Positions 11,721 to 59,028 of a DNA stretch of 64,000 nucleotides are shown here, piece by piece. The translations under genes were made by a program, and so were the position numbers. The stretch spans positions 1 to 64,000 of the forward strand of contig JAJPJJ010000094.1 of assembly GCA_021324295.1 (NCBI GenBank), read 5' to 3'. The DNA is from Bacillota bacterium. Lineage in GTDB: Bacteria; Sysuimicrobiota; Sysuimicrobiia; Sysuimicrobiales; Segetimicrobiaceae. The notes beneath the pieces are model-generated. The model was not told where the DNA came from and did not search any database. It saw only the letters and a program-made list of their open reading frames with translations. How positions within the stretch are numbered: position 1 is the stretch's first letter; each line of letters opens with the position of its first letter.

Positions 11721-12458
11721 GTGAAGAGTTTCGACACGAGAACCCTGAGCCAGCGCGTCTACAGCCACCTGACGAGCGAGATCCTGTCGAACCGCCTCGC
11801 CCCCGGAACGCATCTCCACGAGGCCGCCATTGCGGCCTCCCTGAACATCAGCCGCGTGCCAGTGCGGGAGGCCCTTCGCCTGCTGGCGGCGGAGGGACTG
11901 GTCACGATCATGCCTCGTCGTGGCGCCGTCGTGAAGGCCTTGTCCCCCCAGGAGTTCCTGGCGGCGTACCAGGTGCGCGAGGTGCTGGAGGCGCTGGCGA
12001 TCCGCCTCGCCGTGCCGCGGATGAGCGCGGAGGACCTCCGTACCCTGCGGGCCCTGCATCGGCAGATGGTGGAGTTTGCCGAGCGGGACGATGTCGACCG
12101 ATACTTCCGGGCCAACGCCGCCTTTCACGGGTTGCTGATCGAGCGGTCAGGGAACCGCCATCTTCAGGACATCTATCACCGATTGATGAACCAGACGCGC
12201 CGCTACCGGATGCGGTCCCTCTATCTCCGCGGCGGGCTCCGGCGGTCGCTGTCCGAGCACGCGGCGATCTTGGAGGCGGTTGAGCGGCGTGACGCCGAAG
12301 CCGCGGCGCGACTGCTGGGTGAGCACATCCAGGTGCCACAGCGGATCCTGCAAGCCTCTCGGGGCGTGGAGTTGATCGAGGCAATCCCGAGCCGAAGCGG
12401 AGAGCGCGACCGGGCGGACCAGACATCTGCCGCGCCGCCTGAGAGGCTCCGAGGATGA
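11721..12458 (+). CDS. GntR family regulator (FCD/FadR-type)
   Basis: 'LSQRVYSHLTSEILSNRLAPGTHLHEAAIAASLNISRVPVREALRLLAAEGLV' winged HTH; all-helical C-terminal domain. Confidence 0.9.
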   Translation: MKSFDTRTLSQRVYSHLTSEILSNRLAPGTHLHEAAIAASLNISRVPVREALRLLAAEGLVTIMPRRGAVVKALSPQEFLAAYQVREVLEALAIRLAVPRMSAEDLRTLRALHRQMVEFAERDDVDRYFRANAAFHGLLIERSGNRHLQDIYHRLMNQTRRYRMRSLYLRGGLRRSLSEHAAILEAVERRDAEAAARLLGEHIQVPQRILQASRGVELIEAIPSRSGERDRADQTSAAPPERLRG

Positions 12459-13486
12459 CGTCGCCTCTCCGCTTCGGAGTCAACCTGAACAACAGGGAAC
12501 CCCTGCTCGCTTCGGACTACGACGTGCACGATCTGCTGGATCTCTCAGCGGCCGCGGAGGAGGCGGGGTTCGACTCCGTGTGGGTCGGTGACAGCCTCTT
12601 CTCCAAGCCCCGGTACGAGCCCCTCAGCCTTCTGGCGGCGGTCTCTCAGAGGACGCGCAAGGTCGGCCTGGGCACCGCATGCCTCGTCACGGCAACCCGA
12701 AATCCGCTGTACCTCGCCCTGGAGTGGGCCACGGTCGACGTGATCTCCAGGGGACGCACAATCCTCGGGGCGTGCATGGGGAATCCGGAAGAGGGCGTCC
12801 GCCGAGAGTACCAGGCGGTGGGGCTTGACTACACAAGGCGGGCGGAGATCTTCGAAGAGGGACTCCAGATCTTGCGGACGCTGTGGAGCGAGGGACGCGT
12901 GAGCTTCCACGGCCGGTTCTTCCGGTACGACGACATCAGCTTCTCTTCCGGTGTGGAGAGGGCCCCTCTCATGCCGGTCCAGCAGCCTCCGCCGATCTGG
13001 ATCGTCAGCAACCCTCGGTTGATGCGTGGCGTCCAGGAACGGACCGTCAGTCGCGTGATCGACCGCGCGGCGACGCGCATCGTGCGGTACGGAGACGGGT
13101 GGATGACCTGCTGCCGCGCGCGGCATCCCGAGGAGCTGACGGCGCAACTGGGACGCATTCATGATGCGGCCCGCGCGCTCGGCCGCGACCCGTTGTCCTT
13201 GACGGTCGCCTACCAGGTGACCATGAACATCGCTGACAGCGAAGCGGAGGCGCGGCGCGGGATCGGCGAGTACATCGCCCAGTACTACCCGGAGTTGAGC
13301 AAGGCCGTGGATCTCGACGAGTGGGGACCGGTGGGGACCCCCGACCAGATCGCGGCGTGGATCTCGCGGTTCGCCGACGCCGGCGTGACCTGCTTCATTT
13401 GCCGGTTCGGAGCGCTCGAGCAGTTCAGACAGGTGACCCGGTTCGCCCAGGAGGTGCTGCCCAGGTTCAAACCGCCGGTGACGTGA
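12455..13486 (+). CDS. LLM class (luciferase-like) flavin-dependent oxidoreductase
   Basis: 'AEEAGFDSVWVGDSLFSKPRYEPLSLLAAVSQRTRKVGLGTACLV', 'GLQILRTLWSEGRVSFHGRFFRY'. ATGA overlap with the GntR gene. Confidence 0.9.
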   Translation: MTSPLRFGVNLNNREPLLASDYDVHDLLDLSAAAEEAGFDSVWVGDSLFSKPRYEPLSLLAAVSQRTRKVGLGTACLVTATRNPLYLALEWATVDVISRGRTILGACMGNPEEGVRREYQAVGLDYTRRAEIFEEGLQILRTLWSEGRVSFHGRFFRYDDISFSSGVERAPLMPVQQPPPIWIVSNPRLMRGVQERTVSRVIDRAATRIVRYGDGWMTCCRARHPEELTAQLGRIHDAARALGRDPLSLTVAYQVTMNIADSEAEARRGIGEYIAQYYPELSKAVDLDEWGPVGTPDQIAAWISRFADAGVTCFICRFGALEQFRQVTRFAQEVLPRFKPPVT

Positions 13487-13536
13487 ATCAGCGGGGATGT
13501 CCGGCGGCAGCATTGGTGCGAGAGGGGGACGGCCCT

Positions 13537-14541
13537 ATGGAGCTAGCAGGCGCGCTTCGCCGTGATGCGGAGTTGATCGTTGACACGTGCATGTCGGTGG
13601 TCTCCGGCGACGTGGTAACCATCGTCACCGATGATGCCCACGCGCGGGAGGCTGACGCCCTCGCGGCCGTCGCGCTGGAACGCGGCGCCTTTCCGGTGGT
13701 GATGAACAATGAGGCCCAGGTGCGGCGCGCCCTCAAGGACACCCGCTTTCCGATGGCACCCCCGCGCAATCTGCACCAGGCGATGGTGAACTCCGACGAG
13801 ATCATCATCATCACCAACCTCGAGTGGGCGAACCGATTTGCCCACGTATCGGCGGTCAAGGAATCGTGCGCGCACAATGCGCGAATAGCCTCGGTGGAAG
13901 AGGGGATGGGTACCTGGGATCTGACGGAAGACGATATCCAGGCGGCGACGCAGCGGGCCCGGGACGCCATCAGGATGCTCCAGGGCGCGACGCGGTGCCG
14001 GGTGACGTCGCCCGCGGGGACGGACGTGACTGTGTCGATCGAGGGGCGCCCGGCGCTCGAGGTGACGCCGATCAAGGAACGAGGCCAGATGATGGGTCCC
14101 GTTCCGATGTGGGCGGAGGTCGCCTTTGCCGCGGTGGAGGACCAGACCAACGGGCGCATCGTCGTGGACGGGGTGATGCTCGGGATCGGGCTGCCGGGCC
14201 AGGTGACCACGCCGATTCGATGGACGCTGGACGGCGGCCGGGTCGTCGCCGTCGAGGGCGGATCCGAAGCGCAACGGCTGCGAGAGGTCATCCGTGGGGT
14301 CGAGAACGCGGACGTGATCGGGGAGTTCGCCTTCGGCACCAGCACGAAGTCGCCGTTCGGGTCCCCGTCGGAGAAAGGACGCCTCGGCACCGTCCACTTC
14401 GCTCTGGGAGACAACCACAACGCCTATCCCGGCGGGAAGAACGTTTGCCCGCTGCACCTCGACGGCGTGTGCCTCAACGCCACGCTGCAGATCCTCGACA
14501 CGGGCGCCTATATCCTGAAGGACGGCCGATGGGCGCTATGA
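13537..14541 (+). CDS. M29-like metalloenzyme (leucyl aminopeptidase / 2,5-dihydroxypyridine dioxygenase NicX-like superfamily)
   Basis: Start MELAGALRRDAEL; C-terminal 'GTVHFALGDNHNAYPGGKNVCPLHLDGVCLNATL' contains the HxD metal motif of M29. Confidence 0.72.
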   Translation: MELAGALRRDAELIVDTCMSVVSGDVVTIVTDDAHAREADALAAVALERGAFPVVMNNEAQVRRALKDTRFPMAPPRNLHQAMVNSDEIIIITNLEWANRFAHVSAVKESCAHNARIASVEEGMGTWDLTEDDIQAATQRARDAIRMLQGATRCRVTSPAGTDVTVSIEGRPALEVTPIKERGQMMGPVPMWAEVAFAAVEDQTNGRIVVDGVMLGIGLPGQVTTPIRWTLDGGRVVAVEGGSEAQRLREVIRGVENADVIGEFAFGTSTKSPFGSPSEKGRLGTVHFALGDNHNAYPGGKNVCPLHLDGVCLNATLQILDTGAYILKDGRWAL

Positions 14542-14900
14542 CGGGCGTCCGCGTGCTATCGTTGATGAGCGCGCAGAAAGTTGATCTGCCGGGGGGTAGC
14601 TGGAGCCGGATGGTGATCGCCGCATCGACGGTCGGGGAGACCCGGGCCGCGTTGGGCTACTCGGTGTTCCGCCCGCACACGGTGACCGCGTCGGTCTCCC
14701 ACGAGGTCGAGGAAGTCGCGTTCGTCGTCGACGGCCGGGGTGAGCTCCGCCTGGAGGACGGTGCGGCCCCCTTCGGGCCGGGCGACGCCCTGTTCATCCC
14801 GCCGAACACGTGGCATGCGGTCGCGAACACCGGTGAGGCGGATGTGGTCATGGTCTTCGCGTTTCCCCATCCCGACTACCCTCCGACGAAGAGGCGCTAG
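14538..14900 (+). CDS. Cupin-domain protein
   Basis: 'HEVEEVAFVVDGRGELRLEDGAAPFGPGDALFIPPNTWHAVANTGEADVVMVFAF'. ATGA overlap with the preceding gene. Confidence 0.9.
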   Translation: MTGVRVLSLMSAQKVDLPGGSWSRMVIAASTVGETRAALGYSVFRPHTVTASVSHEVEEVAFVVDGRGELRLEDGAAPFGPGDALFIPPNTWHAVANTGEADVVMVFAFPHPDYPPTKRR

Positions 14901-14906
14901 CATTCG

Positions 14907-15647
14907 ATGGGGTCGAGCGACGACCCGCGGGTCCAGGTCGCCTGGGCGTGCCGGATCCTGGCGCTGGAGGGACACGGCGACCTGACGCTCGGCCATGTGA
15001 GCGCCCGCGCGGAGGACCGCGTTCACGTCCACATGAAGCGCAAGGGGCTGGGCCTGGACGAGGTGACGCCCGATGACGTGATCACGATCGATCTCGACGG
15101 CCGCAAGGTGGCCGGCGACGGGCAGATCCATCTCGAGGCGCCGTTGCACACCGAGGTCTACCGAGCCCGGCCGGACGTCGGAGCGATCATCCACACCCAT
15201 CCCCCGTACGGCACAGCCTTCGGGGCGGTCGACGCGCGCTTGCTGTTTCTATCACACGACGCGCTGCTCTTCCCCGAGGGCGTCGGCTTCTTCGAAGAGA
15301 CGGCCGATCTCGTGATGTCGCCCGAGGCCGGGGCGGCCATCGCCCAGGCGCTCGAGGATCGGCGCGCGCTGTTCCTGCGCAATCATGGGGTGCTGGTGGT
15401 GGGCAAGGACGTACGCTGGGCGGTTCTGGGTGCGGTGACCCTCGAGCGGGCGATTCGTCTCCAGGCGCTCGCCGGCTCGCTGGGGCGGGTCCGGCCCATC
15501 CCCGATCGCGCGGTGACGCCCCTCCACGCCTCGAAGTACCGAGATGAATTCCTGGACGAGTACTGGGCGTACTGGCTGCGGCGGCTTCGGCGGCGAGGCC
15601 TGGACGGGGGGATGCCTGGCGCCCGCCGTCCCGGCAGGCGGCGGTGA
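14907..15647 (+). CDS. Class II aldolase/adducin family protein
   Basis: 'LALEGHGDLTLGHVSAR', 'LHTEVYRARPDVGAIIHTHPPYGTAF', 'LFLRNHGVLVVGKDV'. Confidence 0.9.
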   Translation: MGSSDDPRVQVAWACRILALEGHGDLTLGHVSARAEDRVHVHMKRKGLGLDEVTPDDVITIDLDGRKVAGDGQIHLEAPLHTEVYRARPDVGAIIHTHPPYGTAFGAVDARLLFLSHDALLFPEGVGFFEETADLVMSPEAGAAIAQALEDRRALFLRNHGVLVVGKDVRWAVLGAVTLERAIRLQALAGSLGRVRPIPDRAVTPLHASKYRDEFLDEYWAYWLRRLRRRGLDGGMPGARRPGRRR

Positions 15648-15651
15648 CGGG

Positions 15652-16518
15652 ATGCTTCGTCCCTTCGAGATCCACGAGCCGACCAGCATCGCAGAGGCCA
15701 GCCGTCTGCTCGCCGACCATGGCGAGGATGCTGCGGTGTATGCCGGGGGGACGGAACTGATTCTCGTCATGAAGGAAGGGCTCGCGCATTTCCGTCATCT
15801 CGTGGACATCAAGACGATCCCTGGCCTCGAGACCATCGCTTACGATGGTGCGGTCCTCCGGCTCGGCGCGCTGGCCACGCACCGCGCAATCGAGCGGTCC
15901 GCGGTGGTCGGCCGGCATGCTCCCCTTCTGGCCTCCGTGGCCTCCCAGGTCGCGAACCCCCGCGTTCGGAACGTGGGCACCCTGGGCGGCAACCTCTGCT
16001 TCGCCGAACCTCACAGCGATCTCGGTACCCTCTGCGTGGCCTGGGACGCCGTCATCGTCCTGGCGCGGGATGGCGAGGAGAGGAGCGTGCCCGCCGACCG
16101 GTTCTTCACCGGTGTCTTGGAGACGGTCCGCGAACCGGACGAGGTGCTCGTTCGGGTGGAGCTGCGTCCTTTCGGGCCCGGGACAGGAGGGGCGTATCAG
16201 CGCTTTGCGATGCATGAGCGGCCGACCGCGGGCGTCGCCGCCGTGGTCGCGACACGTGGCGGCGTCATTCAGCACGGGCGCATCGCCATCGGCAGCGTCG
16301 GCCCGATGCCGGTGCGTGCGAGCGAGGCGGAGGCGATGCTGGCGGGGGCGCCGCTGCGCGACGAGGCCCTTCGCGAGGCCGCGAAGGCGGTCGGCCGGCA
16401 CGCCGAGGTCATGGACGACCTCTACGGCTCCGCCGCCTACAAACGCCATGTGTTGACGGTGCTGGCGGCCAGGGCTCTGCGCGAAGCGGTCGCGTGCGCT
16501 CGCGAGGAGGACGCCTGA
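15652..16518 (+). CDS. Molybdenum hydroxylase FAD-binding (medium) subunit
   Basis: 'VYAGGTELILVMKEG', 'NVGTLGGNLCFAEPHSDL' typical of CoxM/XdhB FAD subunits. Confidence 0.92.
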   Translation: MLRPFEIHEPTSIAEASRLLADHGEDAAVYAGGTELILVMKEGLAHFRHLVDIKTIPGLETIAYDGAVLRLGALATHRAIERSAVVGRHAPLLASVASQVANPRVRNVGTLGGNLCFAEPHSDLGTLCVAWDAVIVLARDGEERSVPADRFFTGVLETVREPDEVLVRVELRPFGPGTGGAYQRFAMHERPTAGVAAVVATRGGVIQHGRIAIGSVGPMPVRASEAEAMLAGAPLRDEALREAAKAVGRHAEVMDDLYGSAAYKRHVLTVLAARALREAVACAREEDA

Positions 16519-17033
16519 TGGCCCCCCAGGGGGGCGAGGTCGCCCCGCGGAGGGAGCTGGCCCTGATCGTGAACGGCCGCCCTGCGGTGGCGCGCATCGA
16601 GCCGCGCGAGCTGCTCCTGGATTTCCTCCGCAACCGTCTGGGCCTCACCGGGGCGAAACGGTCGTGCGATGTCCAGGTCTGCGGCGCATGCACGGTGCTC
16701 GTCGACGACCGGCCGGTGAGCGCTTGCTGCTTCCTGGCGTACGAGGCGCGGGGCCGGCAGGTGACGACGATCGAAGGGCTGGCCGAGGCCGGGCACCTCC
16801 ACCCGCTTCAGGAGGCCTTCATCGAGCACGGGGCCATCCAGTGCGGGTTTTGTACCCCCGGGATGATCCTGACGGCCCTCACGCTCCTGCGGGAGGTCCC
16901 CACGCCCAGCCCGGACCAGGTCCGCACCTATCTGAAGGGCAGTCTCTGTCGGTGCACCGGCTACTGGAAGATCATCGACGCCGTCGTCGACGCGGGCCGG
17001 CGGATGGCCCGCGCTGAGGCGGCGCGGAGGTAA
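16518..17033 (+). CDS. Molybdenum hydroxylase [2Fe-2S] (small) subunit
   Basis: 'CDVQVCGACTVLVDDRPVSAC' and 'CGFCTPGMILTA...GSLCRCTGYWKI', two [2Fe-2S] motifs. Overlaps the stop of the upstream gene. Confidence 0.95.
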   Translation: MAPQGGEVAPRRELALIVNGRPAVARIEPRELLLDFLRNRLGLTGAKRSCDVQVCGACTVLVDDRPVSACCFLAYEARGRQVTTIEGLAEAGHLHPLQEAFIEHGAIQCGFCTPGMILTALTLLREVPTPSPDQVRTYLKGSLCRCTGYWKIIDAVVDAGRRMARAEAARR

Positions 17034-17038
17034 CGGCG

Positions 17039-19324
17039 ATGTCGGGCGTCGTCGGTACGGCAATGCGGCGGGTGGATGCCGCCGAGAAGGCCACGGGCGC
17101 GGCGCGCTTCACGGGCGACCTCGCCCTCCCCGGTCTGCTGTGCGGCAAGGTCCTCCGGAGCCCATTCCCGCACGCGCGGCTTGTCCGTGTCGACACCTCG
17201 GCCGCGGAGCGGATGCCAGGGGTGAGGGCCGTCCTTACCGGCGGAGACCTCGCCGACCTCGATCCATACTACGGCCATGCGATCAAGGATCGTCCGATCG
17301 TGGCGCTGGAACGCGTGCGCTTTATCGGAGAACCCGTAGCGGCCGTCGCCGCCGACGACGAGGCGGCGGCCGAGGAGGCGCTGCGGGCGATCACGGTTGA
17401 GTACGAGGAGCTGCCCGCGGTGACCGTGCTGGGAGAAGCGCTCGCCGCGGGAGCACCCCGGGTGCACGAGGGCCCGCTGCGGCCAGGGCTGTTCCACGGC
17501 CTGGGCGACCTGCGGCGCGAGGAGGGCAACATCTGCTACCACTACCACTTTGCCCGCGGCGACCTGGAGAGCGCGTTTGCCGCTTCCGACGTAGTGGTCG
17601 AGGGCGAGTACACCTTCCCGGCCGTCTACCAGTACGCGATGGAGCCGCATACGGTGATTGCCCAATGGGGCGAGAGCGAGATCACCGTCTGGGCATCCTG
17701 CCAGCACCCGTACCTCGTGCGCGCCGAACTGGCGGATCTCTTCAGGGTTCCACTATCCGCGGTGCGCGTCATCGTGCCGTACGTGGGGGGAGGCTTTGGG
17801 AGCAAGTCCTACACCAAGATGGAGCCGCTGACGGTCGCGCTCGCGCGCAAAGCAAGGCGTCCGGTGCGGATCGCCAACAGCATCGAGGAGGCGATGGTGA
17901 CAACCCGCCGTCACAACATGCGGTGTTGGATGCGCACGGGCGCCACCCGGGATGGTGCCGTCGTCGCCCGGCAGTGCCGGATCTGGCTGGATACCGGTGC
18001 CTACGCCGACAACGGGCCTCGGGTGGCTGCAACGGCGGGCGACGCCGCGCCCGGCGCGTACCGCTGGAGGGCGGTGGGAGTGGACGCCTGGGCGGTCTAC
18101 ACGCACACTCCCCCTGCCGGCTCCTATCGCGCGTTCGGCGCCGCCCACATGGCATGGATCGGGGAATCGCAGATCGATGCGCTCGCGCGGCGGGTCGGTC
18201 TGGACCCGCTGGAGTTCCGCCGGCGCAACCTGCTGCGCCCCGGGGAAGAGGTCAGGCCGGGCGGCAAGCCCCTTGACGCGGATCTCGTGGGCGACGTGAC
18301 GAAGGTAGCCGCTGCCGTGGGATGGGGAACGCCGAAGCCTCCGTTTGTGGGGCGCGGCGTCGGGGTCGGCCTGCTGGCCGCCGGCGCGCAGCCTGTCTCC
18401 ACCGCCGTTCTCCGGCTTCAGGCAGATGGCACGGTTGTACTGCTGGTGAGCACGACGGAGCTCGGGCAGGGAGCGCGTACCGCCTTTACGCAGATCGTGG
18501 CGGACGAGCTGGGTGTGCCGCCATCGAGGGTCCGGGTCGCGGGAGCCGATACGCAGGTGACCCCGTTCGACCGCTCCACGGGGGCCAGCCGGTCGACGAC
18601 GCTTGCCGGGACGGCGGTCCAGCGCGCCTCGGCGGACCTGCGGGGGCAACTGCTGGAGATCGCCAAGCGGGTGTGGGGCCTCCCGCTTTCGGCCCTGACG
18701 GTGCGGGACGGCGCGGTGTGGCACGAGACCGACGCGTTGCCCTTTCCGGAGCTGCTCGCCCGCCACTTCGGCATGGTTGGCGGCGAGCTGATCGGCAGGG
18801 GGGAGGTGCGGCCCGAGCGCGGGTCGGGCTCATACGCAGAAGGGCCGGTGTTCTGGGAAGTCTGCGTCGGCGGCGCCGAGGTGCACGTGAGTCCGGAGAC
18901 GGGACAGATCCGGGTCCGCCGGCTGGCCAGCGTTGCGGACGTCGGCAAGGCCATCAATCCTCAGCTCGTGGAGGCGCAGGATGAAGGCGCCTCGCTCCAG
19001 GGACTCGGCAACACCCTTTTCGAGGAGATGATCTTCGAGAACGGCCAACTGATGAACGGCTCGCTTCTGGACTATCACGTGCCGACGACGGCAGACCTCC
19101 CCGATGCGTTTCACACGATCATCGTGGAGAACGGCGATGGCCCGGGTCCGTACGGTGCCAAGGGAGTCGGAGAGGGCGCCCTCGCCGCCGTCCCGGCCGC
19201 GATCGTCAACGCGCTGGCCGATCTCGGCCTTGAGATTCGCGATTTGCCCGTCACACCGGAGCGGGTGCTCCGCTGCCTCGGAGTGCTCGGGGCGCCCGCC
19301 GGGACGGGCGGTGCGGCTCCATAA
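17039..19324 (+). CDS. Molybdenum hydroxylase molybdopterin (large) subunit
   Basis: 761 aa; 'YVGGGFGSKSYTKMEPLTVALARKARRPV', 'GSYRAFGAAHMAW', C-terminal catalytic-Glu region 'GAKGVGEGALAAVPAAI'. Confidence 0.94.
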   Translation: MSGVVGTAMRRVDAAEKATGAARFTGDLALPGLLCGKVLRSPFPHARLVRVDTSAAERMPGVRAVLTGGDLADLDPYYGHAIKDRPIVALERVRFIGEPVAAVAADDEAAAEEALRAITVEYEELPAVTVLGEALAAGAPRVHEGPLRPGLFHGLGDLRREEGNICYHYHFARGDLESAFAASDVVVEGEYTFPAVYQYAMEPHTVIAQWGESEITVWASCQHPYLVRAELADLFRVPLSAVRVIVPYVGGGFGSKSYTKMEPLTVALARKARRPVRIANSIEEAMVTTRRHNMRCWMRTGATRDGAVVARQCRIWLDTGAYADNGPRVAATAGDAAPGAYRWRAVGVDAWAVYTHTPPAGSYRAFGAAHMAWIGESQIDALARRVGLDPLEFRRRNLLRPGEEVRPGGKPLDADLVGDVTKVAAAVGWGTPKPPFVGRGVGVGLLAAGAQPVSTAVLRLQADGTVVLLVSTTELGQGARTAFTQIVADELGVPPSRVRVAGADTQVTPFDRSTGASRSTTLAGTAVQRASADLRGQLLEIAKRVWGLPLSALTVRDGAVWHETDALPFPELLARHFGMVGGELIGRGEVRPERGSGSYAEGPVFWEVCVGGAEVHVSPETGQIRVRRLASVADVGKAINPQLVEAQDEGASLQGLGNTLFEEMIFENGQLMNGSLLDYHVPTTADLPDAFHTIIVENGDGPGPYGAKGVGEGALAAVPAAIVNALADLGLEIRDLPVTPERVLRCLGVLGAPAGTGGAAP

Positions 19325-19392
19325 CCGCAGGGGGCCGCGAGAGGGAGGCGTCGGGTCGTGCACGAGAGGGAAACAGAGACGCCGGAGGCACA

Positions 19393-20349
19393 ATGATCCC
19401 GCCACACGAGCTCCGCGCGGTGGCAGTCATTGGCGCGGGGACGATGGGCCCAGGCATGTCCGCCGTTTTCGCCCGTCACGGCTTCGAGACCCGATTGGCC
19501 GATGTCCAGCCCGAAGCCCTGGAACGCGCGAAGAGGACGGTGGACGGCGTGTACCGTGTTCTCGTTGGGGCAGAGCTTCTGACCGAGGAGGAAGCGGAGG
19601 CCGGTCGCCGGCGGCTTACCTGCACACTCGAGGTGCCGGACGCCCTCCGCGGCGCCGATCTCGTCCTCGAGGCCATCCCAGAACGGCTGGACCTCAAGCA
19701 GCAGTTCTTCGCCGACGCGGAGCGCCACGTCTCCGAGGCGACCATCCTGGCGTCCAACACCTCCGGCATCCCCATCACCGAGCTCGGGAAGGCCGTGCAA
19801 CGCCCCGAGCGGGTCGTCGGAATGCACTGGTCCAATCCGCCGCATCTGATCCCGGTGATCGAGGTGATTCGGGGGAAGATGACGAGCCCCGCGACCGTAG
19901 AGGCAACCCGCTGGGTCGTGAGGCGGCTGGACATGATCCCCGTGCTCATCGAGCGCGATGTGCCCGGATTTGTAGAGAACCGCATCCTCTACGCGATCAT
20001 GCGGGAGGCCCTCCACCTCTGGAACGAGGGGGTGGCCAGCGCGGAGGACATCGATACGATCATCCGGTGGGGGATCGGCTACAAGCTTGCTGTCATCGGG
20101 CCGCTCGCGCTCCTGGACGTGGCGGGGCTGGACATCTATCACAGCGTGGCCAGCTACTTGAACCGGGACCTCAGCAACGCCACCGACGTGAGCCCCGTCG
20201 TGACGCAGCGGGTGGCGCGGGGCGAGCTCGGCGTCAAGTCCGGACGCGGGATCTTCGCCTACGAGCCGGGCGAGATCCCGGCGCTCATGGAGCAACGCAT
20301 GCGGCGACTGCTGGAAGTCAAGAAGGCGCTCTCCCGGGCCGCCACGTAG
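19393..20349 (+). CDS. 3-hydroxyacyl-CoA dehydrogenase family protein
   Basis: 'VAVIGAGTMGPGMSAVFARHGFETRLADV', 'VLEAIPERLDLKQQFF', 'ASNTSGIPITEL', 'GMHWSNPPHLIPVIEVI'. Confidence 0.9.
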   Translation: MIPPHELRAVAVIGAGTMGPGMSAVFARHGFETRLADVQPEALERAKRTVDGVYRVLVGAELLTEEEAEAGRRRLTCTLEVPDALRGADLVLEAIPERLDLKQQFFADAERHVSEATILASNTSGIPITELGKAVQRPERVVGMHWSNPPHLIPVIEVIRGKMTSPATVEATRWVVRRLDMIPVLIERDVPGFVENRILYAIMREALHLWNEGVASAEDIDTIIRWGIGYKLAVIGPLALLDVAGLDIYHSVASYLNRDLSNATDVSPVVTQRVARGELGVKSGRGIFAYEPGEIPALMEQRMRRLLEVKKALSRAAT

Positions 20350-20393
20350 CGGATCGCGGAGGCGCGCCCAGATCGTCCGGGGCGGGGGCCCAG

Positions 20394-21215
20394 GTGTCGA
20401 TCGCTCGTAGCCTTGCTGATGCTGGGATCACGACCACGGCGCTCATCACCGTGGACGGCGTGAGCATGACGTTTCGCGAAGGGACCCGTACGGTCCACGC
20501 CCTGGAGCGCATCTCGCTCACGGTCCCTCGCGGCCAGTTCATCTCGTTGCTCGGCCCCTCAGGATGCGGGAAGTCCACCTTGCTCCGCATCGTGGGAGGG
20601 CTTCTCCGTCCGACCCAAGGGCAGGTGTGGCTGGAAGGGGAGCCGGTGGGACACGCGATCCGTCGCCGGCCCTTCGGCTTCGTCTTCCAGGACCCTGCGC
20701 TGCTGCCGTGGCGGCGCGTCCTGGCCAACGCGACACTGCTGCAGGAGATCGTCTATCGCGATCGCCACGACCGAGACCAGCACGTTGCGCGCGCCAAGGA
20801 GTACCTGGAGCTCATGGGGCTGGGGGCCTTCCTCGATGCCTACCCGCGCGAGCTCTCGGGCGGGATGCGCCAGCGCGTGGCCATCGCCCGCGCGCTGGCC
20901 ATCGCCCCCCAGATCCTCCTGATGGACGAGCCCTTTGGAGCCTTGGACGCGATCACCCGCGACCGCCTCAACCTGGACCTGCTGACCCTGTGGGGACGAA
21001 CCGGTGTCACGATCATGTTTGTGACGCACAGCATTCACGAGGCCGCATTTCTCTCCGACGTCGTCTACGTCATGACGGCCCGGCCCGGTCGCGTCCTGGC
21101 CCGGGTGCCGGTTACCATTCCGCGGCCGCGTGCGCTGGACGTCCAGGAGACCCCCGGCTTCGTCCATCTGGTGCGCGAGCTCCGTGGCCTGCTCGATCGG
21201 GGGATGGAGGGATGA
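20394..21215 (+). CDS. ABC transporter ATP-binding protein (TauB/SsuB-like)
   Basis: GTG start; Walker A 'GPSGCGKST', '[15 protein letters not shown]', '[15 protein letters not shown]'. Confidence 0.93.
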   Translation: MSIARSLADAGITTTALITVDGVSMTFREGTRTVHALERISLTVPRGQFISLLGPSGCGKSTLLRIVGGLLRPTQGQVWLEGEPVGHAIRRRPFGFVFQDPALLPWRRVLANATLLQEIVYRDRHDRDQHVARAKEYLELMGLGAFLDAYPRELSGGMRQRVAIARALAIAPQILLMDEPFGALDAITRDRLNLDLLTLWGRTGVTIMFVTHSIHEAAFLSDVVYVMTARPGRVLARVPVTIPRPRALDVQETPGFVHLVRELRGLLDRGMEG

Positions 21216-21997
21216 GCCGACTCGTCCGGGTGTGGGCTGCGGCCGTGCCGCCCCTCGCGGTCGTGCTGGCTCTCCTCGCCGCATGGGAGGCGGCTAGCAT
21301 CGTCTCGCGCTTCCCGACCTACGTGCTGCCCCGCCCGAGCCAGATCGCGCGCGAGCTGCTCCACCCAGGGTCGCTCTTCTGGACACACACCTGGATTACC
21401 CTCCAGGAGACGCTCATCGGATTCGTCATCGGAAGCTTGGTGGGGCTGACGCTGGCGATCGCCATCGTCCTCTCGCCGCTGATCCGGCGCAGCATCTATC
21501 CCCTGATCGTCCTGTTCCAGACGGTGCCGAAGATCGTCCTGGCGCCGATCTTCATCATCTGGTTCGGATACGGCCTCCTGCCGAAAGAGATGCTGGTTGT
21601 CGTGCTGGCGTTCTTTCCTGTAACGGTCGACGCGATCCACGGGCTCACGTCCATGGATCCGACGCTGGTCGATCTGCTGCACTCGGTCTCCGCGTCACGC
21701 TGGGAGATTCTCTGGAAGATCCAGTTGCCGCACTCGACGCCGCATATCTTCTCCGGCCTCAAGGTCGCTAGCACGCTCAGCGTCATCGGAGCGATCGTCG
21801 GCGAGTGGGCGGGCGCCAACGGTGGACTCGGCTTCCTGATCCTCTCCTCGTCCGCCCAGCTTGAGACGGTGAGGATGTTCTCCGGCGTTGTCGCCGTCTC
21901 GATCATCGGCCTGCTGCTGTTCTACGCGGTGTCGCGCCTGGAGGACTGGTTGCTGCCCTGGCGCGAGAAAGTGGAGGTGCGACATCCGCTTGGGTGA
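21212..21997 (+). CDS. ABC transporter permease (TauC/SsuC-like)
   Basis: Start MSRLVRVWAAAVPP; 'LFQTVPKIVLAPIFIIWFGYGLLPKEMLVVVLAFFPV', ATGA overlap with the ATPase. Confidence 0.92.
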   Translation: MSRLVRVWAAAVPPLAVVLALLAAWEAASIVSRFPTYVLPRPSQIARELLHPGSLFWTHTWITLQETLIGFVIGSLVGLTLAIAIVLSPLIRRSIYPLIVLFQTVPKIVLAPIFIIWFGYGLLPKEMLVVVLAFFPVTVDAIHGLTSMDPTLVDLLHSVSASRWEILWKIQLPHSTPHIFSGLKVASTLSVIGAIVGEWAGANGGLGFLILSSSAQLETVRMFSGVVAVSIIGLLLFYAVSRLEDWLLPWREKVEVRHPLG

Positions 21998-22046
21998 TCC
22001 TGCCGGTCAGGGACGCAAACCGAGACGTGAGGGAGGGGGGATCCGC

Positions 22047-23042
22047 ATGAGGAAAGCGCTCGTCCTGGTTGTTGTGATCGGGCTCGTGATCACCGTGCCG
22101 TGGTCGGTGGGCGCGCAGGCGCCCGACCACGTAAAGGTGCGCCTCGACTGGCTGATCCGGGGCAACCACGCGCCGTTCTTTGTCGCTCAGGAGAAGGGAT
22201 ACTTCCGGAACGAGGGCATCGTTGTGGACCGCATCGACAAGGGCAATGGCTCGGTCAATACGATGACCCTGGTGGGCTCCGGCCAATACGAGTTTGGGTT
22301 CGGTGACCTGCCCACCCTGGCGACGGCGAGGGCGAAGGGGGTCCCGGTGACGTCGCTGGTCGTGGTCAATCAGCAGAGTCCCCTCGCGATGATCGCCTTG
22401 AAGGGGACCGGGCTCAGGGCCCCCAAGGACCTCGAGGGCAAGGTCGTCGGCATCCAGCCGTCCGGATCGACCTACATCTTCTATCTCGCCTTCCTCAAGG
22501 CAAACAAGATCGACCGCAGCAAGATCACCGAGGCGACGATCCCCGTGCCGTACGAGAACTTCCTTCTCACGCGCAAAGTCCAGGTGATCCCAGGCTACAT
22601 CGACGCGGAAATTCCAGAGCTTGAGGCCAAGGCCGGCGGCCCCGGCTCGCTGGAGATCGTCCTGGGCGCGAAGTACGGCTACAACGGCTACGGCAGCGGG
22701 ATGCTCACGAGCGACCGGATGATCAAGGAGCATCCCGACCTCGTGCGTCGTTTCACGCGGGCGTATGTGCGCGGGTTTCAAGACGTGACGAGGAACATCC
22801 GTGAAGCCGCGGACATCCTCGCAAAGTACAACCCCGAAGTGGCCGAGAAGAAGGACGTGATGATGGAGCAGCTCGCAGCGGATATGCAGTTCACCTTCTT
22901 CAGCACCGACACGAAGGCCCATGGCCTCGGGTGGCAGTCGCTGCCGCGCTGGAAATACACCATCGATATTCTGCGCGACCAGGGCGTCATCACCGCGGCG
23001 CTCCGCCCCGACGATGTATTCACGAATGCGTTTCTCAGGTGA
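22047..23042 (+). CDS. ABC transporter substrate-binding protein (NMT1/THI5-like), Sec signal
   Basis: 'MRKALVLVVVIGLVITVPWSVGAQA' signal peptide; 'VKVRLDWLIRGNHAPFFVAQEKGYFRNEGIVV'. Confidence 0.92.
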   Translation: MRKALVLVVVIGLVITVPWSVGAQAPDHVKVRLDWLIRGNHAPFFVAQEKGYFRNEGIVVDRIDKGNGSVNTMTLVGSGQYEFGFGDLPTLATARAKGVPVTSLVVVNQQSPLAMIALKGTGLRAPKDLEGKVVGIQPSGSTYIFYLAFLKANKIDRSKITEATIPVPYENFLLTRKVQVIPGYIDAEIPELEAKAGGPGSLEIVLGAKYGYNGYGSGMLTSDRMIKEHPDLVRRFTRAYVRGFQDVTRNIREAADILAKYNPEVAEKKDVMMEQLAADMQFTFFSTDTKAHGLGWQSLPRWKYTIDILRDQGVITAALRPDDVFTNAFLR

Positions 23043-23102: not shown

Positions 23103-25478
23103 CTATCGCATCCCGTCGCGCGAGGTCGGGCCCGTGGGGCCCTGGAGCAGGGACACGACGGTCTCGGGCGTCAACGGATAGGCCGTCCGGTGGACCCCCG
23201 CGGGGCCGAGGGCATCGAGGACGGCGTTGACCACGGCCACGTTTGCGCCAATGAGCGGGCCCTCGCCGACTCCCTTCATGCCCCCTGGCGTATGGGGTGA
23301 CGGCGTCTCCAGGTGCACGAGGCGAACGTCGGGCGTGTCAGCGGCTGTCGGCAGCAAGTAGTCGATCAGCGTGGTCGTGAGGAGCTGGCCATCTGAGCCG
23401 TAGACGACCTCTTCGAGAAGCGCGCCCCCGAGCCCCTGGGCGATGCCGCCGGCGATCTGGTCGGCGACCAGCCGCGGGTTGAGGACCGTTCCACAGTCGT
23501 GCGCGACGGCGTACGTGTCGATGCGCACGAGCCCGGTGGCCGGATCCACCTCGCATCCGACCACGTGGATCTGCGCAGAGAACGTCCAGTTGACGGGGTC
23601 GTAGATCGCCTTGGCTTCGAGCCCCGGCTCCATGCCGGCTGGCAACCTGTGCGCTCGCCATGCCTCCAGGGCCACGTCCCCGAGGGCCACCGATGCGCGC
23701 GGATCTCCGAGCCGACGCACCGCGCCGTCCGCCAATTCTACGTCCTCCAGCGGGGCCTTCAGAAGGTGTGCGCCCAGACGCAAGATCTTGTCCCTCAACG
23801 TCCGGCAGGCCAGAACGACGGCGCCGCCGGCCACGGCGGCGCCTCGGCTGGCCGCCGTTCCGTAGAAGCTGAACGGCACGAGGTGTGTATCTCCCGTGTA
23901 GACGGCGACAGATTCGGGCGCCACCGCGAAGGAATCGGCGCAGATCTGCGCGAGCGCGGCGGCGATACCCTGCCCCACCTCGATGATGCCTGTGTAGCAG
24001 GCGACCGCGCCGGAGGGGTGGATGCGCACGAGCGCGGTCTCGTACCCGCCCTGCCGGTTCCCAGCCGCCGCCATCAGCCGGGATGGTCCCATGCCGGTGT
24101 ATTCGATCAGGGCGGCGAGCCCCACGCCGAAGAATCTGCCGTTCCGGCGTGCCTCCGCTTGCCGCCGGCGAAGCAAGTGATAGCCCGACGCATCCACCGC
24201 AGCGTCCAGGAGCGCGTGGAGATCGCCGCTATCGTAGCGTAGCTGCCCGGCGCTGGTGTACGGCATCTCGTCGGCGCGGAGCAGGTTACGTCGCCGTGCG
24301 TCGACGGGGTCGATCCCGAGACGCGCCGCGACGCGATCCATGATGCGCTCATGCACGAAGACCGCCTCGGGCTGGCCGAACCCGCGGTACGCACCGTGCG
24401 GCGTCTTGTTGGTGACGACCGCCCGGCACGCGACGCGGTAGTGCTCGAGCCGGTACGGCCCGGGCAGCATGCGCGCCGTGAGCCACGCCGGCGCGTTGCC
24501 CTTCGTGTGCAGGTGGGCGCCGACATCCGCGTGGATCTCCGCCTCGATGCCTGTCAGCGTGCCGTCGCGGCGCACGCCGACCCGCACCCGGATCGTCTGC
24601 TGCCGGCTGTGCACGGTGGCCATGAAGTGCTCCCGCCGGTCTTCGACGTACGTGACCGGCCTGCCCAGCCTCACGGAGAGCACGCAAGCGACGACGTCCT
24701 CGGGGAAATAATGGAGCTTGTTGCCGAACCCGCCGCCGATCCGCGGAGCGATGACACGGATGCGATCCTCCGGCAGGCTCACCGCGCGGGCGAGGTAGGC
24801 GCGAAACGGCTCGGGCGCCTGGGTCGAGTACCAGATCGTCAGAAACCTCTCGCGGGGATCGTAGCTGGCGACGATGGCGCGCGGCTCCATCGGGATGGCC
24901 ATCTGCCGCGGCGTACGGAAGACGTCCTCGATGACGAAGTCCGCCGCGTCCAGGGCAGCGCGGACGTCGCCGCTCTCGATCACCGCTTGTGCCGCCACGT
25001 TGTCTCCCCACTCCTCGTGCAGGACGGGGCTCCCCGGGGCCAGCGCCTCCTCGACGCTCGTGACGGCAGGAAGAGGATCGTACTCGACCTTCACGGCCTC
25101 CGCCCCGTCCTCAGCGAGGTAGCGGGAGTGCGCGACCACCATCGCCAGCGGCTGGCCGACGTAGAGGGCCTTCGGATAGAAGAGCGGGTAGGCGTGCATT
25201 CTCTGTCCCGGGACGACCGAGAGAATCGGAAGGTCGGGCAGCCCGGCCGCGTCGGCGGGCCCGAAGACCGCCCGCACGCCGGGGATGGCCCGCGCCGGCG
25301 CGAGGTCCAGGCGCACGATTCGCGCGTGGGCGTGCTGGCTGCGAACCACGGCCATGTGGAGGGAGTGTGATGGCGAGACGTCGGCGACGTATGCTCCGAG
25401 CCCCTGGAGAAGCGGCTTGAGGTCCGGTCTCCGAACGCCGCTTCCCACCCATCGCCGTCCGCGCTGCACCACTCTCAT
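23103..25478 (-). CDS. Molybdenum hydroxylase molybdopterin (large) subunit, standalone
   Basis: 'RIGGGFGNKLHYFPEDVVACVLSVRLGRPV', 'GAYRGFGQPEAVFVHE', 'GGMKGVGEGPLIGANVAVVNAV'; start MRVVQRGRRWVG. Confidence 0.92.
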   Translation of the reverse strand: MRVVQRGRRWVGSGVRRPDLKPLLQGLGAYVADVSPSHSLHMAVVRSQHAHARIVRLDLAPARAIPGVRAVFGPADAAGLPDLPILSVVPGQRMHAYPLFYPKALYVGQPLAMVVAHSRYLAEDGAEAVKVEYDPLPAVTSVEEALAPGSPVLHEEWGDNVAAQAVIESGDVRAALDAADFVIEDVFRTPRQMAIPMEPRAIVASYDPRERFLTIWYSTQAPEPFRAYLARAVSLPEDRIRVIAPRIGGGFGNKLHYFPEDVVACVLSVRLGRPVTYVEDRREHFMATVHSRQQTIRVRVGVRRDGTLTGIEAEIHADVGAHLHTKGNAPAWLTARMLPGPYRLEHYRVACRAVVTNKTPHGAYRGFGQPEAVFVHERIMDRVAARLGIDPVDARRRNLLRADEMPYTSAGQLRYDSGDLHALLDAAVDASGYHLLRRRQAEARRNGRFFGVGLAALIEYTGMGPSRLMAAAGNRQGGYETALVRIHPSGAVACYTGIIEVGQGIAAALAQICADSFAVAPESVAVYTGDTHLVPFSFYGTAASRGAAVAGGAVVLACRTLRDKILRLGAHLLKAPLEDVELADGAVRRLGDPRASVALGDVALEAWRAHRLPAGMEPGLEAKAIYDPVNWTFSAQIHVVGCEVDPATGLVRIDTYAVAHDCGTVLNPRLVADQIAGGIAQGLGGALLEEVVYGSDGQLLTTTLIDYLLPTAADTPDVRLVHLETPSPHTPGGMKGVGEGPLIGANVAVVNAVLDALGPAGVHRTAYPLTPETVVSLLQGPTGPTSRDGMR

Positions 25479-25682
25479 GAGCCACCTCGACCCCTCAGCG
25501 TGGGATTGGTATCGGCGCCTGCACGCTCGATTCGGTGGAATCTGTGGGCTCCCTCCAGACCGTCGCCGCGGACAGTGGGCAAGCGGGTCGGCGCCCGAGG
25601 GATCGCTCCACTGTGGTCGGCACCTAGCCCCGATGCTGTACATGGACGATGGGCGGGGCCGACGAGTGTGGCAGCACCTTGC

Positions 25683-48586: not shown

Positions 48587-49921
48587 ATGCGCCGCCTCGT
48601 CATCGACAACGGCGCTGTCCTGACCTGCGATGGAGAGGATCGCTATCTTGCCCGTGGGCGGATCGTCGTCCGAGGAGGCCGGATCGCGCAGGTCATGGAC
48701 AGCCCGGATGGCCGCGCGGACGTGCCCGGCGCCCCCCCGGGCGGCGTCGCGGACGAGGATTGTGATCGGGTCGACGCCGGCGGCTGTATCATTATCCCCG
48801 GGCTGGTCAACTGCCACACGCACCTCTGGCTCAGCCTCCTGCGGGGCGCGCTCGACGACCTCACGCTCTTTCCATGGCTTCGCCGTCTCGGACCGCTGAC
48901 AAATGAGCTGAGCGATGCGGAGGTCCTGCGGGCGACCTACTTCGGCATCGCGGAGTCGCTGCTGTCGGGCACGACGTGCCTCTGTGAGTGCTGTCGGTAC
49001 GCGCCGGACGTGAGCGCGCAGGTCGCCGCAGCCCTGGGATGCCGGCTTGTCGTCGGGGGGATGCCTCCCACCGAACTGTTTGGCGCGCCGCTGCCCCATG
49101 ACTACGGTCATCTCGTGGCTCGGACCCGCCGTGCGCTCGACATCCCCGGCGGCGACCGCGGCTTGATCTCCGTCTGGATGGGAGCGCACTCGGTCTACAA
49201 CTGCTCCGCTGACTTCCTACAGGACGCGAAGCGCGCGGCGGACATGCACGACTGCGATTTCTACATTCACCTGGCCGAGTGCCGGGACGAGGTCGACGTC
49301 ATTCGGGAGCGGTACGGGCGGACGCCGGTGCAGTACGCGGCCGATCTGGGCTTGCTCGATCGGCGCACGGTGGCCGTCCACTGTGTGTGGCTGACGGACG
49401 ACGACATCCGGCTGTTCCGGCGCACCGGGGCCCGGATGGCACACTGTCCGGTGAGCAACGCCAAGCTCGGGAGCGGTGTCGCGCCGGTAACGAGGTACCG
49501 CGCGGCCGGGATCACCGTCGGATTGGGGACGGACAGCATGGTGAGCAACAACACGCTGTCGATGTTCCAGGAGATGCGCTTCGCCGTCCTCATCCAGCGC
49601 GCTGTGCGCCAGGATGTCGCGCTCACGGCCTCAGACGCGCTCAGGATGGCGACGATCGAGGCTGCCCGCACGCTGGGGTTGGAGCGCGAGATCGGCTCGA
49701 TCGAGAGCGGGAAGCAGGCAGATCTCGTGCTCCTCCGGTCGACCCGTCCCGGCCCCGTAACCAAGGAGAGGGCGCTGTCCGACGTCGTGTACGCGGCTCA
49801 GCGCGATGAGATCGAGGCGGTGTACGTCGCGGGCGAGCGCGTCGTGTCTCGAGGTCGGCTCACCCGACTCGCGGATACTGAGCGATGGGAGCGAATTCGA
49901 GGGGAACGGCCGCTTGAGTGA
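48587..49921 (+). CDS. Amidohydrolase (ATZ/TRZ/SsnA-like deaminase family)
   Basis: 'GLVNCHTHLWLSLLRG', 'VAVHCVWLTDDDIRLF', '[47 protein letters not shown]'. Confidence 0.92.
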   Translation: MRRLVIDNGAVLTCDGEDRYLARGRIVVRGGRIAQVMDSPDGRADVPGAPPGGVADEDCDRVDAGGCIIIPGLVNCHTHLWLSLLRGALDDLTLFPWLRRLGPLTNELSDAEVLRATYFGIAESLLSGTTCLCECCRYAPDVSAQVAAALGCRLVVGGMPPTELFGAPLPHDYGHLVARTRRALDIPGGDRGLISVWMGAHSVYNCSADFLQDAKRAADMHDCDFYIHLAECRDEVDVIRERYGRTPVQYAADLGLLDRRTVAVHCVWLTDDDIRLFRRTGARMAHCPVSNAKLGSGVAPVTRYRAAGITVGLGTDSMVSNNTLSMFQEMRFAVLIQRAVRQDVALTASDALRMATIEAARTLGLEREIGSIESGKQADLVLLRSTRPGPVTKERALSDVVYAAQRDEIEAVYVAGERVVSRGRLTRLADTERWERIRGERPLE

Positions 49922-51239: not shown

Positions 51240-52307
51240 CTAGACGTTGGGGGTCTTCGCCGTGACCACCAGGTCGTCCGTCATGATCTCGTCGACCGAG
51301 ACCGGCCGCGGGATCTGGCCGAGCGCGCGCATCGTGTCCGTGAGATCCTGCCACACCTTGGGGTCCATGTACCCCCAGCCGTGCTGCTTCGTGGTGACCG
51401 ACGTCAGGTAGCCGCCACGGACCACCTCTTCCCAGGTCCTAAGCTCCGATTGGCGGTTCAGCCCCGTGGTCATCTTGAGCAGGTGGTCGATGGCCTCGTC
51501 CGGATGATCGCGTGCGTACAGCCACCCCCGCGCGCTCGCGGACACGAAGCGCACGAGCACGTCCCTGCGCTCCCGGAGGATCTGGTCGGTGACGAAGTAG
51601 GTGTAGGCGTACAGGCGGATTCCGAGGTCCCACAACCGGAAGTAGCTGATCGCCCCGGCCTGCTGCACGGCCTCCATCTGCGCGGCGTTGATGAGCCACC
51701 CGGTGATCACGTCCACCTGCCCGGTCACGAGGGGCGTGGTGTCGCCGCCGACGAACAGCACCTTCAGGCGGTCCTTGTTGATGTTGTATTTCCGGATGAC
51801 GGCGTCGAGCAGCGGCCGGGCCGTCGGCTGGATGCCGATCGTCTTGCCCTCGAAATCCTTGGGGGTGCGGATCTTGGACTTGGTGAAAAACACGAACGCA
51901 AACGGATGACGTTGGAACGCCGTGCAGAAGGCCTTGACCGGCAGGCCTTGGGCGCGGGCGTTGACGAGGACGGCCACGGACGACACGTTGCCGAACATCG
52001 TCCCCCCGCCCGCGACCACCTGGATCGGATCGATGGCCGGGCCGCCCGGCCGGATGGTGAGATCGATGCCGGCCTCTCGAAAGTACCCCTTGGCGAGGCC
52101 GACGACGTCTCCCGCCATCTGGCTGTTGAGGAACCAGCCGATCTGCATCGAAGCCCTGGCGGACGGCTGCGCCCCCACGGGGGCCACCGGCCCAAACAGT
52201 CGATCGCCGGCCGCCAGCCCCAGGGCCAATGCGCCGGCCCCTCTGACGAAGTCGCGGCGACTGACCCGCGGGACGACCAGCGTGACCTCATCGCGCCTCA
52301 TCAGCAT
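51240..52307 (-). CDS. ABC transporter substrate-binding protein (NMT1/THI5-like), paralog 1, Tat-type signal
   Basis: 'SRRDFVRGAGALALG' leader; 'MQIGWFLNSQMAGDVVGLAKGYFREAGIDLTIRPGGPAIDPIQVVAGGGTMFG'. Confidence 0.92.
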   Translation of the reverse strand: MLMRRDEVTLVVPRVSRRDFVRGAGALALGLAAGDRLFGPVAPVGAQPSARASMQIGWFLNSQMAGDVVGLAKGYFREAGIDLTIRPGGPAIDPIQVVAGGGTMFGNVSSVAVLVNARAQGLPVKAFCTAFQRHPFAFVFFTKSKIRTPKDFEGKTIGIQPTARPLLDAVIRKYNINKDRLKVLFVGGDTTPLVTGQVDVITGWLINAAQMEAVQQAGAISYFRLWDLGIRLYAYTYFVTDQILRERRDVLVRFVSASARGWLYARDHPDEAIDHLLKMTTGLNRQSELRTWEEVVRGGYLTSVTTKQHGWGYMDPKVWQDLTDTMRALGQIPRPVSVDEIMTDDLVVTAKTPNV

Positions 52308-52341
52308 CCCCCTCCGTCCGTCTGCGTGGGACCGTGCGCCC

Positions 52342-58797: not shown

Positions 58798-59028
58798 GCG
58801 TGAGCCCCCGCCGGACGCGCTGAGATCGGCGCAAGACGGGCTCCCCTGAAGCCTGTTCGCACCGTCTCGACCGGAACAGAGCCTTTCGCGATGGACGAGG
58901 AGAGTCCTTTCCTCGACGGCGACGGCCGCGCCGCGGTGAGGGGACGACCGGATCCCTCGCCGGCGCGGAGGCGAGGGGGACACGCGGACGCGACGGCCGC
59001 ACCGGGTGGGTGGGGACGAGAGGCCGCG

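Follow-up and report, generated by a model that had tools for sequence, protein, structure and literature searches.

A predicted vitamin B6 degradation operon that appears to open the pyridine ring with enzymes unlike those described

Introduction

The genetics of vitamin B6 catabolism has been described chiefly from degradation pathway I of the Mesorhizobium loti type, which employs the oxygenase MHPCO and is represented by M. loti MAFF303099 and Pseudomonas sp. MA-1. In M. loti, MHPCO, a group A flavoprotein monooxygenase (PMC6315137), opens the pyridine ring and AAMS hydrolase completes the pathway (PMC3538738). A different pyridine, 2,5-dihydroxypyridine, is the substrate of the 5,6-dioxygenase NicX (PDB 7cn3/7cup), which binds Fe(II) through His265, Ser302, His318 and Asp320 and touches its substrate with His105 (PMC7910607). 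The M29 aminopeptidases (AmpT, AmpS, PepS and LmAmpII) are characterized by an EEH(Y)HD set, in which E250, E316, H345, H378 and D380 are the metal ligands and Y352 is an essential tyrosine (PMC7023490).

We analyzed a stretch of 64,000 nucleotides (the window; contig JAJPJJ010000094.1, positions 1 to 64,000, assembly GCA_021324295.1) from a draft genome of 4.02 Mb in 129 contigs, referred to as G000. It contains a 12-gene operon that, to judge from its sequence, very probably serves vitamin B6 catabolism, and that appears to join the first half of the textbook pathway to ring-opening enzymes that differ from any described for this vitamin. The operon has in common with pathway I the enzyme 5-formyl-3-hydroxy-2-methylpyridine-4-carboxylate 5-dehydrogenase (FHMPC dehydrogenase, FHMPC-DH), and its class II aldolase-family protein belongs to the same superfamily as Mlr6791 of that pathway, whereas the pyridoxamine-pyruvate transaminase, the pyridoxal 4-dehydrogenase of the short-chain dehydrogenase/reductase (SDR) family and the 4-pyridoxolactonase are shared by sister loci only. 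It differs from pathway I in its organisms and gene order, in that an MHPCO-type FAD oxygenase was not found, and in the addition of a luciferase-like (LLM) flavin enzyme, an M29-like protein, a cupin and a molybdenum (Mo) hydroxylase. No description of this cluster was found in the literature covered, which mostly excludes subscription journals.

Results

Organization of the operon

The 12 genes lie on the + strand at 11721-23042, and each is intact, with valid start and stop codons. An initial annotation of the sequence had described 12 same-strand genes separated by short gaps or ATGA overlaps, and checking coordinates and codons bore this out; ATGA overlaps join the GntR and LLM genes and the M29-like and cupin genes, and the genes for the FAD and FeS subunits overlap as well. 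All 12 proteins have a Pfam match above the cut-off, that to M29 being weak. These matches agree with the gene identities first assigned, except that the presumed 3-hydroxyacyl-CoA dehydrogenase fits the FHMPC dehydrogenase family best. The genes are as follows.

11721-12458, + strand, GntR/FCD-family regulator (Pfam GntR 66 bits, FCD 112 bits)
12455-13486, + strand, LLM flavin enzyme, candidate ring oxygenator (Pfam Bac_luciferase 153 bits)
13537-14541, + strand, M29-like metalloenzyme, candidate amide/lactam hydrolase or, alternatively, dioxygenase (Pfam M29 42 bits)
14538-14900, + strand, single-domain cupin (Pfam Cupin_2 59 bits)
14907-15647, + strand, class II aldolase-family protein, probable decarboxylase of 3-hydroxy-2-methylpyridine-4,5-dicarboxylate (HMPDC) (Pfam Aldolase_II 145 bits)
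15652-16518, + strand, Mo hydroxylase FAD subunit, M (Pfam FAD_binding_5 151 bits, CO_deh_flav_C 70 bits)
16518-17033, + strand, Mo hydroxylase [2Fe-2S] subunit, S (Pfam Fer2_2 106 bits)
17039-19324, + strand, Mo hydroxylase Mo-cofactor subunit, L (MoCoBD_1 246 bits, MoCoBD_2 215 bits)
19393-20349, + strand, FHMPC dehydrogenase homologue (NCBIfam NF042925, PDB 4om8)
about 20394-21215, + strand, ATP-binding cassette (ABC) importer ATPase (Pfam ABC_tran 120 bits)
21212-21997, + strand, ABC importer permease (Pfam BPD_transp_1 91 bits)
about 22047-23042, + strand, NMT1/THI5-like substrate-binding protein (SBP) (Pfam NMT1 140 bits)

The dehydrogenase and the related loci point to vitamin B6

The substrate can be named as vitamin B6 because the dehydrogenase encoded at 19393-20349 is a homologue of FHMPC-DH, an identity that the initial annotation had missed. 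The protein scores 400 bits against NCBIfam NF042925 (FHMPC_DH), as compared to 243 for the runner-up family, and 322 bits against PDB 4om8, as compared to 172 for the next chain; 4om8 is the FHMPC dehydrogenase with which M. loti breaks down vitamin B6. The motifs TSGIPIT, HWSNPPH and YK.AVIGP.ALLD.AGLDIY are common to the window protein and 4om8 and are missing from the best ordinary hydroxybutyryl-CoA dehydrogenase, and HWSNPP is invariant among 24 FHMPC-DH homologues from the cluster.

A search for the conserved neighborhood, which the initial annotation had proposed, found it in 40 related loci among 84,980 scanned genomes; these loci lie mostly in metagenome-assembled genomes (MAGs) labeled Chloroflexi or Actinobacteria, with others from Acidobacteria, Latescibacterota and Armatimonadota. 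The LLM, M29-like protein, cupin, aldolase, Mo hydroxylase and FHMPC-DH form the core that is kept, and the shared order runs GntR, LLM, M29-like, cupin, aldolase, Mo hydroxylase, FHMPC-DH, lactonase, SDR, glyoxalase-like protein and zinc-dependent alcohol dehydrogenase (Zn-ADH), often joined by a transaminase and a BMP-type ABC system. Such an order, kept in some 40 loci across several phyla, is not a product of chance. The LLM gene adjoins the M29-like gene in 38 of the 40 loci, the cupin is present in 36/40 and the Mo hydroxylase is near-universal, while FHMPC-DH occurs in 24 of the 27 loci in which the Mo-subunit gene is complete and followed by over 1.3 kb of sequence. Many loci have a GntR protein 48-66% identical to that of the window immediately upstream of the LLM, and SBP homologues of 50-51% identity adjoin the cluster in two (L049 and L069). 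One cluster-bearing MAG contig titled Bifidobacterium breve (L065, CAMDEC010000016.1) has the layout of Ilumatobacteraceae/Acidimicrobiia MAGs (L062, L064), and its organism name is probably wrong.

Representative related loci encode further B6 proteins that exceed their NCBIfam cut-offs, namely pyridoxal 4-dehydrogenase (363 bits, cut-off 325), 4-pyridoxolactonase (420 bits, cut-off 325) and a BMP protein that is a putative component of a B6 ABC transporter (435 bits, cut-off 400); the first two are above cut-off in sister loci L045 and L062. Within the order of the window genome, two genomes (G022 and G013) carry M29-like orthologues of 81% identity in the same operon, which includes a pyridoxamine-pyruvate transaminase (364 bits in G022, 351 bits in G013) and, in G022, a 4-pyridoxolactonase (280 bits). 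No close M29-like orthologue was found in genomes of the same family; those that were found belong to different families of the order and to different phyla.

Presence of the M29-like protein follows that of FHMPC-DH. In a sample of the phylum (n = 43), FHMPC-DH and a close homologue of the M29-like protein occur in the same three genomes (3/3). Among 349 genomes of a second class, the M29-like protein (>590 bits) was detected in 15 and FHMPC-DH (>350 bits) in 17, with both in 15, an overlap for which the hypergeometric P is 1.7e-24 when shared ancestry is ignored. In the two genomes with FHMPC-DH only, the contigs start inside the cluster, just past the expected position of the M29-like gene. 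The initial proposal of an operon that degrades an N-heteroaromatic compound and has a dedicated importer thus holds, in that the operon is conserved in relatives and its substrate can be named, whereas the accompanying assignment of a NicX-type ring-opening enzyme fares differently (see below).

No full-length MHPCO counterpart in G022 and no AAMS hydrolase recognized among the cluster neighbors

No full-length PF01494 flavoprotein was found in G022, despite the fuller upper pathway there, and 12 of 15 other cluster-bearing genomes yielded no PF01494 match below 1e-25. The best PF01494 protein of G000 (L081) was rejected as an MHPCO candidate, as it does not match the MHPCO entries in the PDB. 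AAMS hydrolase, an alpha/beta hydrolase, was not recognized among the conserved neighbors in the clustered loci, a genome-wide search for it not having been made. Plasmids searched with FHMPC-DH and the lactonase for a B6 cluster of the classical kind returned generic homologues or nothing, and PF01494 therefore stood in for MHPCO. The operon quite probably employs a ring-opening module unlike MHPCO and AAMS hydrolase. Because G022, the relative whose cluster is fullest, showed no full-length MHPCO counterpart, ring opening probably falls to the LLM, M29-like protein and cupin, with help from the Mo hydroxylase.

One locus separates these components. On a 6.36 Mb contig of G252 (L106, 4017-11827), the genes for the LLM, M29-like protein, cupin, aldolase, FHMPC-DH, lactonase, SDR and Zn-ADH are contiguous, with no Mo hydroxylase gene between aldolase and FHMPC-DH; the best Mo-subunit homologue is a 37% paralogue ~30 kb away. 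This layout suggests an unvarying core of LLM, M29-like protein and cupin, with a Mo hydroxylase that one host at least can replace.

The M29-like protein combines a NicX-like fold with an M29-type metal site

Searched as a single sequence, the M29-like protein gave only chance viral matches in the PDB and no NCBIfam match, whereas a profile of 34 M29-like sequences had NicX as its sole PDB match. Its AlphaFold2 model (mean pLDDT 92) was compared by Foldseek to known structures, as the initial annotation had suggested, and proved typical of neither family. The best match is NicX (7cn3, E 1.4e-21, TM 0.77), followed by PepS, AmpS and AmpT (TM 0.63-0.70), and NicX also resembles the protein in length, in the HxD metal pair and in having an equivalent of His105. 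At the positions of the NicX Fe ligands, numbered by a check against 7cn3, the window protein has Glu263, Ala289, His307 and Asp309, so that His265 and Ser302 are replaced by Glu and Ala; NicX Glu177 is not clearly conserved. All five M29 metal ligands are retained (E194, E263, H287, H307 and D309), of which Glu194 and His287 are absent from NicX, but the catalytic tyrosine of the M29 enzymes corresponds to His294, a position that varies among homologues. The metal residues are invariant in 34 homologues, as is His103, which aligns with NicX His105. Because fold and length are NicX-like but the metal ligands are M29-type, the protein is, as judged from sequence and model, a separate subfamily.

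These features bear on the main alternative to hydrolysis. In that alternative, the Mo hydroxylase turns 3-hydroxy-2-methylpyridine-5-carboxylate (HMPC) into 3,6-dihydroxy-2-methylpyridine-5-carboxylate, which is a 2,5-dihydroxypyridine. The M29-like protein would then act on this product as an Fe(II) dioxygenase, breaking the bond between C2 and C3 and leaving an N-acetyl amide. It draws on the structural and profile matches to NicX, on the invariance of His103 at the position of a substrate-contacting residue (PMC7910607) and on the prevalence of the Mo hydroxylase in the loci. The substrate would also suit that enzyme. The C6 atom of HMPC is the only free carbon beside the ring nitrogen, and such carbons are the kind that Mo hydroxylases attack. 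Against it stand the loss of two Fe ligands, the completion of the M29 di-metal set by Glu194 and His287, and the G252 cluster, which retains the LLM, M29-like protein and cupin but has no Mo hydroxylase. A sister M29-like subfamily of ~53% identity (L108-L112, in G135, G111, G059, G131 and G077) adds a further objection, as its neighbors are a cupin, UbiD, a DHOD-like protein, an M20 peptidase and either Mo hydroxylase or tungsten-type AFOR genes, with no LLM. Its loci form a putative cluster for catabolism of an aromatic compound or heterocycle, and the setting fits an O2-independent role there. On balance we regard NicX-type cleavage as unlikely, though worth keeping in view, and do not retain the initial assignment of the M29-like protein as a NicX-type ring-opening enzyme. 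A hydrolase is favored by the residues present, since retention of the di-metal site argues for hydrolysis.

Five loci of the window's own family (L008, L012, L017, L021 and L022) encode NicX-like proteins that keep His265 and the HxD motif and have Ala at Ser302; to judge from these residues, this is a further variant of the dihydroxypyridine dioxygenase site.

The LLM, cupin, aldolase and Mo hydroxylase

The LLM shares its fold and Pfam family with RutA, SfnG and bacterial luciferase (LLM/group C flavin monooxygenases) and with F420-dependent LLM enzymes; it is ~20-25% identical to all of them and has a conserved motif of its own, WMTCCRAxHP. Its AlphaFold2 fold is intermediate between FMN luciferases and F420 enzymes and favors neither cofactor. 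CofD scores 299 bits in G000, is not found in G022 and is represented in G013 by a 28-bit partial match only, and both relatives carry orthologous LLMs. Because these two genomes are without CofD, F420 dependence is weakened and the LLM probably depends on FMN.

The cupin has three invariant potential metal ligands, H56, E60 and H94 (20 sequences; numbering of the 121-residue translation from 14535). Its frequency in the loci, these ligands and a weak resemblance, in NCBIfam, to the dioxygenases of gentisate and 5-aminosalicylate would allow it to be the dioxygenase that cleaves the ring, its substrate being a dihydroxypyridine carboxylate that resembles gentisate and is made by the Mo hydroxylase. 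The similarity is no more than generic cupins show (E about 1e-3), Val takes the place of the first His in the canonical HxH, the protein is a single 120-residue domain, and a cupin also stands beside the sister M29-like subfamily in the AFOR/UbiD setting; we judge this role improbable.

In the aldolase-family protein the metal-site residues are present, and E77, H96, H98 and H160 are invariant in 32 sequences. The Mo hydroxylase, of the xanthine oxidase family, is complete in its M, S and L subunits and catalytic Glu (E712 of the GxGEG motif, invariant in 33 sequences); the nearest PDB entries to its L subunit are 4-hydroxybenzoyl-CoA reductase (1rm6) and then quinoline 2-oxidoreductase (1t3q). 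This subunit has 16 matches in the window genome, itself counted, and a second Mo-hydroxylase large subunit (846 aa) is encoded convergently to the operon at 23106-25643 on the - strand.

Other genes in the window

Two neighboring genes on the - strand at 51243-53397 encode proteins with similar N-termini, and as that at 51243-52307 is an NMT1-like binding protein, the window holds a second NMT1-type importer. Amidohydrolase-family genes at 48587-49918 and 58891-60336 (+ strand) have no link to the B6 operon in relatives.

Discussion

We propose that vitamin B6, or the 4-pyridoxate formed by its oxidation, enters through the NMT1-type ABC system, that the GntR protein regulates the operon, and that degradation proceeds by way of 4-pyridoxate, its ring-opening half being non-orthologous to the known one. 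FHMPC dehydrogenase would oxidize the 5-formyl group to give HMPDC, the step with sequence support, and the aldolase-family enzyme may convert HMPDC to HMPC. In M. loti the FAD enzyme MHPCO acts on HMPC, and AAMS hydrolase cleaves the N-acetyl compound that results; here both steps would be taken over by the LLM, M29-like protein and cupin. In the most likely order, the LLM would oxygenate and open the ring in place of MHPCO and the M29-like di-metal protein would then hydrolyze the amide formed, while the Mo hydroxylase would hydroxylate C6 or oxidize a B6 aldehyde. This division of labor is favored because the constant core includes the LLM and M29-like protein but not the Mo hydroxylase, which can be replaced, as in G252; the individual roles of the two proteins are nonetheless tentative. 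That the operon combines B6 catabolism with a replaced ring-opening step is, as a joint claim, probable.

Several observations weigh against this account. The FHMPC-DH score falls below the NCBIfam equivalog cut-off of 500 bits, and the pyridoxamine-pyruvate transaminase of the related loci, at 514 bits, is likewise below its cut-off of 600. The window operon has no transaminase, pyridoxal dehydrogenase or lactonase gene; a lactonase was not found in G000 at 1e-40, its transaminase matches are generic with no dedicated enzyme among them, and no gene is assigned as 4-pyridoxate dehydrogenase. G000 may thus import 4-pyridoxate or oxidize pyridoxal with the Mo hydroxylase. The best PDB match of the aldolase is 8iqa (122 bits), the known HMPDC decarboxylase Mlr6791 (2z7b, 84 bits) ranking fifth, and because other aldolases outscore 2z7b we infer HMPDC decarboxylation rather than read it from the match. 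The absence of MHPCO was judged by the family model PF01494 and not with an MHPCO sequence as query, and the LLM cofactor and every reaction are predictions.

The dehydrogenase score below its cut-off, the missing entry genes and the ranking of the aldolase would also suit a substrate other than B6, be it another pyridine or an aromatic acid. The FHMPC-DH and aldolase homologues would then have been co-opted for a related hydroxypyridine carboxylate. We give this little credence, considering that sister clusters encode a pyridoxal 4-dehydrogenase, a 4-pyridoxolactonase and a B6 ABC binding protein that exceed their cut-offs, that the nearest relative has the transaminase and lactonase in its operon, and that the M29-like protein and FHMPC-DH co-occur almost perfectly. 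The Pfam match and five conserved ligands of the M29-like protein might imply a plain aminopeptidase whose operon serves general catabolism. This is hardly credible, given that His294 replaces the essential tyrosine (PMC7023490), that the protein falls ~80 residues short of the M29 peptidases in length and lies closer to NicX in structure, that it is strictly linked to B6 genes, and that a true M29 peptidase is encoded elsewhere in the window genome.

We lean toward a third way of opening the B6 ring, in which an LLM and a new M29/NicX-fold di-metal subfamily, with a cupin and Mo hydroxylase, would replace MHPCO and AAMS hydrolase, and which would be the prevailing B6 route in Actinobacteria, Chloroflexi and related lineages. 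Vitamin B6 is almost certainly what the operon breaks down, in bacteria of soil and water. If this is correct, B6 degradation would be widespread in uncultured Chloroflexi, Actinobacteria and their relatives, a substrate would be provided for an unassigned M29/NicX-fold subfamily and for an LLM subfamily, and the M29-like protein would offer a direct test case for one fold moving between peptidase, dioxygenase and possibly ring-processing chemistry.

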